A stretch of 64,000 nucleotides of DNA from Sipunculus nudus (lineage: Eukaryota > Annelida > Sipuncula > Golfingiida > Sipunculidae): the NCBI GenBank assembly GCA_026874595.1, contig CM049318.1, forward strand, positions 48,278,456 to 48,342,455, written 5' to 3'. Made by a program: the position numbers and the translations under genes. Shown one piece after another: positions 3,621 through 7,862 of the stretch. A model generated the notes under the pieces. The model worked only from the letters and a program-made list of their open reading frames with translations, was not told the origin of the DNA and did not search any database. The first letter of the stretch is position 1. The number at the start of each line of letters is the position of its first letter.

Positions 3621-3760
3621 CTCCAGTAACCTGTCACCGGACCTCAGTCTACCATCAGTTATTGCAGCACCTTTAGGTAAGATATTTTTGACATAGATAG
3701 GACAGTTTCCCCCTGCTGGGTTGTCTCTTGTTGTTACACTGAAACCCAGACCATCAGAAC
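3621..3760 (-). CDS. PARD3: PARD3-like exon, core of PDZ2
   Basis: The acceptor ttttgtaattgcag precedes GT, which completes a glycine split across the intron; the donor is GAG|gtatac. It has 46 codons (window residues 454-499): [20 protein letters not shown] then [20 protein letters not shown] and GDRLLE. The GLGF carboxylate-binding motif is intact. Vertebrate Par-3 PDZ2 reads EGLGFSITSRD...[27 protein letters not shown]. Par-3 PDZ2 is known to bind phosphoinositides. The first 18 exon bases and the preceding 30 intron bases are the founder unit of the 48-bp minisatellite that fills the upstream intron. Confidence 0.96.
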
Positions 3761-4930
3761 CTGCAATTACAAAATAAACTGGCTGTCAATAACCCAGACC
3801 ATCAGAACCTGCAATTACAAAATAAACTGGCTGTCAATAACCCAGACCATCAGAACCTGCAATTACATAATAAACTGGCTGTCAATATAACCAAGACCAT
3901 CAGAACCTGCAATCACAAAATAAACTGGCTGTCAATAACCCAAACCATCAGAACCTGCAATTACATAATAAACTGGCTGTCAATATAACCAAGACCATCA
4001 GAACCTGCAATTACAAAATAAACTGGCTGTCAATAACCCAGACCATCAGAACCTGCAATTACAAAATAAACTGGCTGTCAATATAACCAAAACCATCAGA
4101 ACCTGCAATTACAAAATAAACTGGCTGTCAATAATCCAGACCATCAGAACCTGCAATTACAAAATAAACTGGCTGTCAATAACCAAGACCATCAGAACCT
4201 GCAATTACAAAATAAACTGGCTGTCAATAACCCAGACCATCAGAACCTGCAATTACAAAATAAACTGGCTGTCAATAACCCAGACCATCAGAACCTGCAA
4301 TTACAAAATAAACAGGCTGTCAATAACCCAAACCATCAGAACCTGCAATAACAAAATAAACTGGTTGTCAATAACCCAAACCATCAGAACCTGCAATTAC
4401 AAAATAAACTGGCTGTCAATAACCCAGACCATCAGAACCTGCAATTACAAAATAAACTGGCTGTCAATAACCCAAACCATCAGAACCTGCAATTACAAAA
4501 TAAACTGGCTTTCAATAACCCAGACCATCAGAACCTGCAATTACAAATAAACTGGCTATCAATAACCCAAACCATCAGAACCTGCAATTACAAAATAAAC
4601 TGGCTGTCAATAACCCAGACCATCATAACCTGCAATTACAAAATAAACTGGCTGTCAATAACCCAGACCATCAGAACCTGCAATTACAAAATAAACTGGC
4701 TGTCAATAACCAAGACCATCAGAACCTGCAATTACAAAATAAACTGGCTGTCAATAACCCTAACCATCAGAACCTGCAATTACAAAATAAACTGGCTGTC
4801 AATAACCCAAACCATCAAAACCTGCAATTACAAAATTAACTGGCTGTCATAACCCAGACCATAAGAACCTGAAATTACAAAATAAACTGGCTGTCAATAA
4901 CCCAGACCATCAGAACCTGCAATTACAAAA
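3743..4930 (-). repeat. 48-bp minisatellite derived from the PDZ2 exon 3' splice site, proximal block
   Basis: About 25 head-to-tail units, mostly 48 bp, a few 50 bp. The plus-strand unit runs AACCCAGACCATCAGAAC (identical to the first 18 coding bases of the PDZ2 exon, 3743-3760), then CTGCAATTACAAAATAAACT and GGCTGTCAAT (the adjacent intron). On the minus strand every unit therefore carries the acceptor TTTTGTAATTGCAG followed by exon start GTTCTGATGG. The array lies wholly upstream of the real acceptor in transcription order. Read from a decoy in the normal phase, the unit reaches TGA after seven codons. Confidence 0.95.
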
Positions 4931-7313
4931 CTAGATGTGTCGGAACAACACGAATGCCCCCGCCTGGGGCAAATTAGAAACATTTGTTAAATTTTGTAAA
5001 AATTTTTTAAGTTCAGGTGGTGTTGTATGGCCAAAAGTAGGTCAACAAGGGCAAAATGCAGACTCAATCTGTAACGGGTCATTATCAAGCAACACACCAA
5101 AAATCAGGCCTGTATCTGCAGACATTGTGAAAAAAAGTCCATACATGTGCATTTTCATAAAAATTTCTGTCTCTCATGAAATTTTCTATGTTCAGGATCT
5201 GTCATATGGTCAAAAATAGGTCAACTGGGACAAAACGCGAACTTGATCATTAAGTATAGTCATTATGCCCCAACAGACCAAACATTAGGCCAGTATCTGT
5301 AAGCATTGCATTGCAAAACTAGAATATTAGCAAAAGCTGATAATCAGTTATTGCAACTAGAATATTAGCAAAAGCTGATAATCAGTTATAAATTTAAATT
5401 GGAGAGGTATGTACTATGTTTCATAACAATCCACCAAATGCTTCCTGAGAAATAAGGTTTTTTTTCTATACTAAGCCCTGTTACCTTGAAAAGTAGGTCA
5501 AGATCACCCATCTTTAAACTTGACCAAGATTTTGTACATAACATGCATTAGCACTGAAGAAATGAAGTTCCTGTGTTGAATACCTTTGGAGATATCCTGC
5601 ACAAAAGGCCAAAATTGAAAAATCTGATAAAAATTTATTAAAAAATCAGAAACTGTAGGTGGTGCCACAAAAATAGTGCAGCACGCACAGACCATCATTC
5701 AAAATGATCATAGTAAGTTTTGTGAAAATCCACACAATGGTTTCTGAGATATAAGCTTCTGAGTGTTTCTGTATTATCAGCTCTAAAACAAAGAAAAATC
5801 GGTCAAGGTCACCCATCTTTGCACTTGACCAAGATTCTGTTGATATATATCTTCACTGATGAAATAAAATTCCCCCGGTGAGTTCTTTTAGAGATATCAT
5901 GCTCACAAGGCCAAAACTGAAAAATCCAAAAAAAATGGATTGAAAAATCAGAAATTGCAGGTGGTGCCACCAAAATTGTGCAGCACATACAGACCATCAG
6001 TCCCAATGATCATAGTAAGTTTTGTGAAAATCCACACAATGGTTTCTGAGATATAAGCTTCAGAGTGTTTTTCTATAATCAGCTCTAAAATGTAGAAAAA
6101 TGGGTCAAGGTCACTCATCTCCGAACTTGACTGAGATTTTATCGATATACATCTTCACTGATGAAATAAAATTCCAACGGTGAATCCTTTTAGAGACATC
6201 CCGCTCACAAGGACAGACGGAGGCCAGACGGAAAGACAGACGAATGGACAGACGGACGGACAGACGGACTGCTTGGGTGACGACAGTAGCCCATCAGCCT
6301 ATGAGCTGAGGGCTAAAAACGGCTGTACATGTACATTTGTCATGAAAATTTATATTTTTCATGAAATTTTCTTTGTTTAGGAGCCGTAAAACAATCAAAA
6401 GAAGGTCAACCGTGACGAAACGCTAACTCGACCTGTAAGTGGACATTATCTGGCCACACAATAAAAATCAGGCTAATATCTGCAGGCATTGTGAAAAAAA
6501 GTCTGTACATGTGTATTTGTCATGAAAATTTATATTTTTCATGAAATTTTATATGTTCAGGAGCTGTGAAATGGTCAAAAGTAGGTCAACTGGGACGAAA
6601 CGCGAACTTGATCTGTAACTGGTCAATATCTGCCAACACACCAAAAAATCAGGCCAATATTTGCAGGCATTGCGAAAAAAAGTCCGTACATGTGTATTTG
6701 TCATGAAAATATCTATCTTTCATGAAATTTTCTAAGTTAAGGTGCCATTAAACGGTCAAAAGTAGGTCAACCGGGTGGAAACGCGAACTCGATCTATACC
6801 TGGTCATTATCTGGCCACACAACAAAAATCAGGCCATATCTGCAGGCATTGCGAAAAAAAGTCTGTACATGTGTATTTGTCATGAAAATTTCTATTTTTC
6901 ATGAAATTTTCTAAGTTTAGGAGCCGTAAAATGGTCAAAAATAGGTCAACCAGGACGAAACCCGAACTCGATCTGTAACTGGTCATTTTCTGCCAACACA
7001 CCCAAAATCAGGCCAAAATCTGCAGGCACTGCGAAAAAAAGTCCGTACATGTGTATTTGTCATGAAAATTTCTATTTTTCATGAAATTTTTTAAGTTTAG
7101 GGGCCGTAAAACAATAAAAGTAGGTCAACCGGGATGAAACTTAAACTCAATCTGTAACTGGTCATTATCTGCCCACACACCAAAAATCAGGCCAAAATCT
7201 GCAGGCACTGTGAAAAAAAGTCTGTACAACTGTTTGATTTCGGAATGACGGAATGACGGAAGGATGGACATGGGTAAAACTATATGCTCCGGCCACTTTG
7301 TGGCGGGGGCATA
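4931..7313 (+). mobile_element. Pearl/HINE-like non-autonomous element splitting the minisatellite
   Basis: The 48-bp array stops after AATTACAAAA and resumes at TAAAATGGCTGTC, so the insertion borders are visible to within a few bases. The head is CTAGATGTGTCGGAACAAC followed by ATGCCCCCGCC. The tail is a hairpin, ATGCTCCGGCCAC-TTT-GTGGCGGGGGCAT, whose right arm is the inverse of the head motif. Between them lie core repeats of about 185 bp (6330-7230, and 4990-5310) containing 'gtaggtcaaccgggacgaaacg' words, then a short (ACGG)-like stretch near 7245. No protein is encoded. The layout matches bivalve pearl elements and Helentron-associated HINEs as I know them; the family assignment is inferred. 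Confidence 0.7.
5319..6317 (+). mobile_element. Second core-repeat element nested inside the first
   Basis: It begins CTAGAATATTAGCAAAAGCT, with that start duplicated at about 5350, and ends GCCCATCAGCCTATGAGCTG then AGGGCTAAAA, after a GACGGACGGACAGACGG run. It interrupts the outer element between 'gcattgcaaaa' and 'cggctgtacatg'. Core repeats of about 300 bp carry 'gaaattgcaggtggtgccacc' and 'gagatatcctgctcacaag'. A second, more intact copy lies at 53129-54173. Confidence 0.7.
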
Positions 7314-7862
7314 ATAAAATGGCTGTCAATAACCAAACCATCAGAACCTGCAATTACAAAATAAACTGGATGTCAATAACCCAGACCATCAGAAATTGCA
7401 ATTACAAAATAAACAGCTGTCATTAACCCAGACCATTAGAATCTGCAATTACAAAATAAACTGGCTGTCAATAACCCAAACCATCAGAACCTGCAATTAC
7501 AAAATAAACTGGCTGTCAATAACCCTAACCATCAGAACCTGCAATTACAAAATAAACTGGCTGTCAATAACCCAAACCATCAGAACCAACAATTACAAAA
7601 TAAACAGGCTGTCAATAGTCCAGACCATCAGAACCTGCAATTACAAAATAACCTGGCTGTCAATAACCCAAACCATCAGAACCTGCAATTACAAAATAAA
7701 CTGGCTGTCAATAACCCAAACCATCAGAACCTGCAATTACAAAATAAACTGGCTGTCAATAACCCAAACCATCAGAACCTGCAATTACAAAATAAACTGG
7801 CTGTCAATAACCCAAACCATCAGAACCTGCAATAACAAAATAAACTGGCTGTCAATAACATG
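7314..7862 (-). repeat. 48-bp splice-site minisatellite, distal block
   Basis: Eleven or so further units of the array at 3743-4930, displaced by the 4931-7313 insertion. Several units have lost part of the acceptor (for example at 7588, where the CTGC is changed to CAAC). The block ends at 'ctgtcaataacatgaccagtgg'. Confidence 0.93.

Follow-up and report, generated by a model that had tools for sequence, protein, structure and literature searches.

A 48-bp minisatellite across the intron-exon boundary of the PDZ2 exon in a Par-3 homologue, and its probable tolerance as a splicing "mirage"

The window analysed here is a stretch of 64,000 nucleotides deposited as Sipunculus nudus (assembly GCA_026874595.1, contig CM049318.1, positions 48,278,456 to 48,342,455), and all coordinates below are those of the window. 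Its minus strand carries part of a homologue of Par-3, whose exons at 9033-8663, 3760-3621 and from 2489 onward join into a single shared frame. The intron ahead of the second of these exons, which encodes part of the PDZ2 domain, holds a tandem array of a 48-bp unit, and this unit copies the boundary between that intron and the exon. The copies that lie upstream of the real acceptor are called decoys. The features of the locus, in the order of transcription, are as follows.

8663..9033, minus strand: coding exon that precedes the host intron in the Par-3 homologue, with an open frame and AG/GT borders; its 3' end reads AAAG/GTATAT (a slash within a sequence marks the boundary under discussion), in phase 1, and its 5' border is set by frame and AG only
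3761..8662, minus strand: host intron of 4,902 nt, containing the entire array minus the final 18 bases
7313..7859, minus strand: upstream block of the array, with 11 decoys that have an AG position, nine of them with AG intact (7586 reads TG and 7395 reads AA)
4931..7312, no strand assigned: insert of 2,382 bp, unrelated to the unit and lying inside one unit, with inverted ATGCCCCCGCC/GGCGGGGGCAT near its ends
3761..4930, minus strand: exon-proximal part of the array, in which each of the 24 decoys has AG intact
3743..3790, minus strand: real unit, 30 intron and 18 exon bases, with the same sequence as the adjacent upstream unit
3621..3760, minus strand: PDZ2 exon of Par-3, 140 nt, with the true acceptor at 3761/3760 and the donor after 3621, placed by alignment to Par-3 PDZ2
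2300..2489, minus strand: next exon, which begins at 2489 (VNG...) and completes PDZ2, placed by the joined frame and the same alignment; 2300 is the cut point of the translation rather than a determined 3' end

The identity of the host gene rests on the protein that these exons encode. A 96-residue peptide translated from the three joined exons aligned without gaps to 2kom, "Partitioning defective 3 homolog" (E 3.1e-34), and the three best matches among the 19 listed sequences were all Par-3 entries. Because this peptide matches the solved Par-3 PDZ2 ungapped across both introns, the junction 8663/3760 is supported and the true acceptor at 3760 is backed by protein homology, beyond the AG alone. 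The first two exons joined were likewise recognised by Pfam as PDZ (E 1.3e-06). Five short exon-like peptides outside PDZ2, which may resemble Par-3, returned zero Pfam matches at a threshold of 0.01. The host intron is in phase 1, with Gly as the split codon, and the PDZ2 exon is flanked by introns of 4.9 kb upstream and 1.1 kb downstream. The acceptor at 2489 also reads TGCAG/GT (CTGCAG/GTAAAT), a second AG/GT junction in the gene.

On the minus strand the unit reads ATTGACAGCCAGTTTATTTTGTAATTGCAG/GTTCTGATGGTCTGGGTT, and alignment confirmed what the first-pass annotation of this DNA had read from it, namely the last 30 intron bases followed by the first 18 exon bases of the PDZ2 exon. With a period of 48, Tandem Repeats Finder (TRF) reported 24.7 copies at 3743-4930 (94% matches) and 11.4 copies at 7313-7859 (92% matches). 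The array had been placed at 3743..7862, but it is not continuous over that interval, as the unrelated insert occupies 4931-7312. The 24-mer TTTTGTAATTGCAGGTTCTGATGG occurs at 36 sites of the window with at most three mismatches, every one on the minus strand and inside the array (a count that supersedes the 24 sites of a mismatch-free scan), whereas no such site arose in any of 100 dinucleotide shuffles (mean 0.00, maximum 0). One of the 36 acceptor cores is the real acceptor and the decoys therefore number 35, in agreement with the earlier estimate of about 35 copies. A wraparound alignment yielded 38 rows, three of them partial; row 7312, the unit split by the insert, lacks an AG position and does not enter the decoy counts.

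The unit carries a complete local acceptor. TTGAC, which we take to match the branch-site consensus, stands at -29 to -25 and is followed by a T-rich stretch and then by AG, and each intact unit presents an acceptor with GT directly after it. AG is intact in 33/35 decoys and AGGT in 32/35. Among the 34 decoys that cover the stretch from -20 to +3, 21 have the same sequence there as the real site, so that any scoring model confined to -20..+3 must rate these decoys equal to it; the acceptors had been described as near-identical, and this description holds. Over all 48 bases, 5/34 full-length decoys match the real unit, or 11/34 when position +12, which varies between C and T, is disregarded. 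The decoy adjoining the real unit shows no difference from it and the next one out differs at one base. At this end of the array the authentic boundary is kept, and the last unit continues into the PDZ2 exon. The antisense (plus) strand of the array is open at 3972-4547 (192 codons) and at 7333-7860 (176 codons), encoding a 16-residue repeat; as the unit length is a multiple of three, these long frames are probably due to chance.

Splicing from 8663 to a decoy would bring a stop into frame. The consensus product reads G-S-D-G-L-G-Y-stop, the stop being TGA. The annotation had placed this TGA seven codons in, which is exact for 27/35 decoys, while in the remaining eight the distance ranges from 4 to 22 codons. 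An in-frame stop would thus be reached with all 35 decoys, two of which are without AG, and the consensus unit contains a stop in each of the three frames. The predicted exon length is 188 nt with the nearest decoy and 626 nt with the tenth.

The insert that splits the array has internal tandem repeats of 302 bp and 179 bp and, from its sequence, appears mobile-element-like. Since it lies inside one unit, it was inserted later than at least some of the expansion. Scans of viral contigs with the insert end and with the unit core gave no match, as expected for animal DNA. Elsewhere in the window, a repeat of about 301 bp at 53291-54076 resembles the 302-bp repeat of the insert by eye.

The edges of the array offer a clue to its origin. 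With CATGTT/ATTGACAG at the upstream side and GGGTT/TCAG at the exon side, the two have GTT in common, which would fit a duplication at microhomology. We propose that a 48-bp tandem duplication across the boundary, perhaps at this GTT, founded the array, that slippage or unequal exchange then enlarged and homogenised it, and that a mobile-like element may have entered afterwards. Units near the exon carry a 2-bp insertion in alternate positions (rows 3936, 4034 and 4132), and both blocks contain the C/T variant at +12; the two patterns look like signs of array turnover. Differences from the consensus average 2.3 per unit in the distal block (11 full units) and 1.6 in the exon-proximal block (23 full units), and AG losses number 2/11 and 0/24, respectively.

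Costly decoys would predict losses of AG and needed decoys its conservation. AG positions are changed in 2/70 cases, against 44/1,656 at all positions except +12. Substitutions amount to 14/705 in the region -17..+3 and 30/951 elsewhere (Fisher p = 0.17), and to 24/1,055 in the intron part and 20/601 in the exon part (p = 0.21), with the +12 variant omitted from both comparisons. These substitution counts, of low power, detected neither conservation nor purging of AG and therefore give no sign of selection on the decoys. The straddling of a splice site is itself within the reach of coincidence. A unit would do so by chance in 6-16% of such windows, an estimate based on eight hand-picked arrays (periods 29 to 53, at least five copies) and on the assumption that the window holds 10 to 30 splice sites; one case in a minisatellite-rich genome is therefore unsurprising. 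When nine array rows were compared with four exon borders of the gene, only 3743-4930 overlapped a border.

The closest relatives of this arrangement are the "mirages" of amphioxus, minisatellite-like tandem duplications across an intron-exon boundary in Adh3 and in the globin genes BflGb6 and BflGb9 (PMC3087553). As in the Par-3 array, the BflGb6 unit consists of the 3' end of an intron and the 5' part of an exon, and many, though not all, units contain AG/GT (PMC3087553). The two differ in scale: the Par-3 array has 35 decoys of 48 bp, whereas BflGb6 is described from two haplotypes, one with 6 units and the other with 3, of 150-160 bp and 81-100% identity (PMC3087553). Adh3 units are 10-72 bp long (PMC3087553). 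By its anatomy, the Par-3 array belongs with the mirages, and its units far outnumber those of the globin cases described there. Because the BflGb6 haplotypes differ in copy number, polymorphism of array length between individuals is plausible here as well. A literature search found no paper on the Par-3 array, although no query named Par-3 or targeted mirages in other animals.

Other systems share single features with the array. In the human IFI6 (6-16) minisatellite (Turri et al. 1995) the units also supply splice sites, and two downstream units are reported to be in use (PMC4526556, PMC3618361); those units provide donors, whereas the Par-3 units provide acceptors. Mirage-type arrays have been proposed as sources of new introns (PMC3087553). 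In intron gain by tandem duplication (the Rogers model, potato RdRp and fission-yeast 24-bp repeats), the duplication contains AGGT or, in potato, crosses one intron-exon boundary (PMC4974935), while none of the Par-3 units is evidenced as a spliced intron. Decoy exons in retained introns of OGT and other genes likewise contain intronic splice sites that could recruit the spliceosome and give rise to stops (PMC12017769); those cryptic exons have experimental support, in contrast to the Par-3 array, which has been seen only in genomic DNA.

Overall, we consider it probable that the array is a boundary-spanning minisatellite of the mirage type that is tolerated by its host gene, with decoy use amounting to noise; it is most likely more a tolerated accident than a switch. 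The majority of transcripts would keep the acceptor at 3760, because the PDZ2 exon would be defined jointly with the donor that ends it 140 nt on, at 3621. With every step to a further decoy the exon would grow by about 48 nt, and the decoys lack the exon body past +18. Sites with the same local sequence would thus be separated by context, the real site lying closest to the donor at 3621 and being followed by the complete exon body. In accord with this, the sites closest across the exon are reported to be favoured where flanking introns are large (PMC9225289). Since every decoy leads to a stop, decoy products would be cleared by nonsense-mediated decay (NMD). Several points weigh against such ready tolerance. 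Competing 3' splice sites generally favour the upstream site (PMC9225289), and for sites of equal strength in long introns this preference is described as significantly reduced, the text giving no figure for a reversal (PMC9225289); some decoy use is therefore to be expected. Moreover, the 21/34 decoys that are the same over -20..+3 leave the real site no advantage from that stretch. Taken together, we would expect 3760 to be used mainly, with some use of decoys.

Several alternatives would give the array a role. If decoys bound U2AF and competed with the real acceptor, array length could determine how much of the Par-3 mRNA is productive or slow the removal of the intron. Such a rheostat of splicing and NMD would make use of the stops that follow all 35 decoys and of the AG kept in 33/35, and in human OGT and other genes U2AF-binding decoy exons are reported to promote intron retention (PMC12017769). 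The units might even offer both kinds of splice site: in a pairing model that does not hold register, U1 binds the in-array CAG/GTTCTG at -5.6 kcal/mol, as compared with -5.9 and -5.8 for the donors of the gene, though 13% of the region's 404 GT sites, a set that includes the array's own GTs, reach this value. The AGs of the decoys are altered at about the average rate of the unit, however, and the amphioxus mirages are reported without disturbance of splicing, reverse-transcription PCR and Adh3 data being said to suggest that regular splicing is undisturbed (PMC3087553). We therefore regard a rheostat, which the first-pass annotation had suggested, as unlikely; the analysis lent no support to it or to the suggested variation of copy number between individuals. 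Recursive splicing is a still more doubtful candidate. Here, use of a decoy would regenerate AAAG/GTTCTG, the following 48n nt would form a GT...AG intron, and a second step would restore the normal mRNA. The AGGT that is intact in 32/35 decoys provides the juxtaposed AG/GT of ratchet points, and fission-yeast genes are reported to have introns spanning two or four 24-bp AGGT repeats (PMC4974935). Yet the regenerated donor appears weak: the model gives it -4.1 kcal/mol with U1, where the two real donors reach -5.9 and -5.8. Of the same 404 GT sites, 20% equal or better the regenerated donor; the shares that equal or better the real donors are 2.7% and 3.7%. One unit of 48 nt would also make a short intron. 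Most Drosophila ratchet points are said to have strong regenerated donors (PMC8605326). In a bolder form of the idea, the ladder of acceptors could stay silent only through correction or hiding, and re-splicing, combined with the copying of intact units over the real site, would make the array a self-renewing reserve of acceptors that preserves the exon edge, varies in number between individuals and tunes Par-3 output; this we would call a long shot.

Hiding might also arise from RNA structure, as the RNA of the acceptor core is a quasi-palindrome and the decoys could pair mutually, leaving the terminal acceptor more open. Modelling of ideal arrays with at least two decoys gave an unpaired fraction of 6-14% for the decoy cores and of 18-21% for the terminal core, and the masking of the core at its fixed position was equalled by 1/200 shuffled units. 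This advantage fades under other measures: when the most masked 12-mer is taken wherever it lies, 9/200 shuffles do equally well, the core self-duplex is equalled by 125/1,000 shuffles, and in a one-decoy array the real site is less open (0.09) than the decoy (0.15). When the actual sequence was folded with 24/35 decoys, the real site ranked fifth of 25 in openness and, by a 4-nt CAGG measure, was less open than the decoys on average (0.003 against 0.015). A modelled single-copy site is more open still (0.35), and the unpaired fraction of the acceptor core is 5-6% in ideal long arrays, compared with 35% in the modelled single copy. Folding of the exon-end stretch of 192 nt, or about four units, gave z = -1.85, and 6/200 shuffles do as well. 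Mutual masking accordingly seems very improbable, the faintest of the candidates considered. Finally, the array could be an assembly artefact or a mis-sized repeat, and the BflGb6 mirage did seem aberrantly assembled in the amphioxus genome draft (PMC3087553). Against this, many units have private variants, the insert divides the array, and the unit at its end continues as a coding exon. We hold an artefact to be quite improbable, while the copy number of the array may still be wrong.

Other minisatellites were recorded in the window: a 50-bp unit at 59364-61277 (38 copies); a GC-rich 42-bp unit at 47066-47945 (21 copies), a multiple of three, with 278 and 266 codons open on the two strands; two arrays at 34509-35031 and 38047-38577 with a common 53-bp consensus unit and about 3.5 kb between them; and a 29-bp unit at 20139-21057 (32 copies), with no contact with the four exon borders compared above.

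If the host is not a cephalochordate, the Par-3 array would extend mirages beyond the animals in which they were described. Its 35 near-identical acceptors in series provide a natural experiment on how a 3' splice site is chosen beyond its local sequence, with distance to the downstream donor, the order of transcription and the exon body as the candidate deciders.

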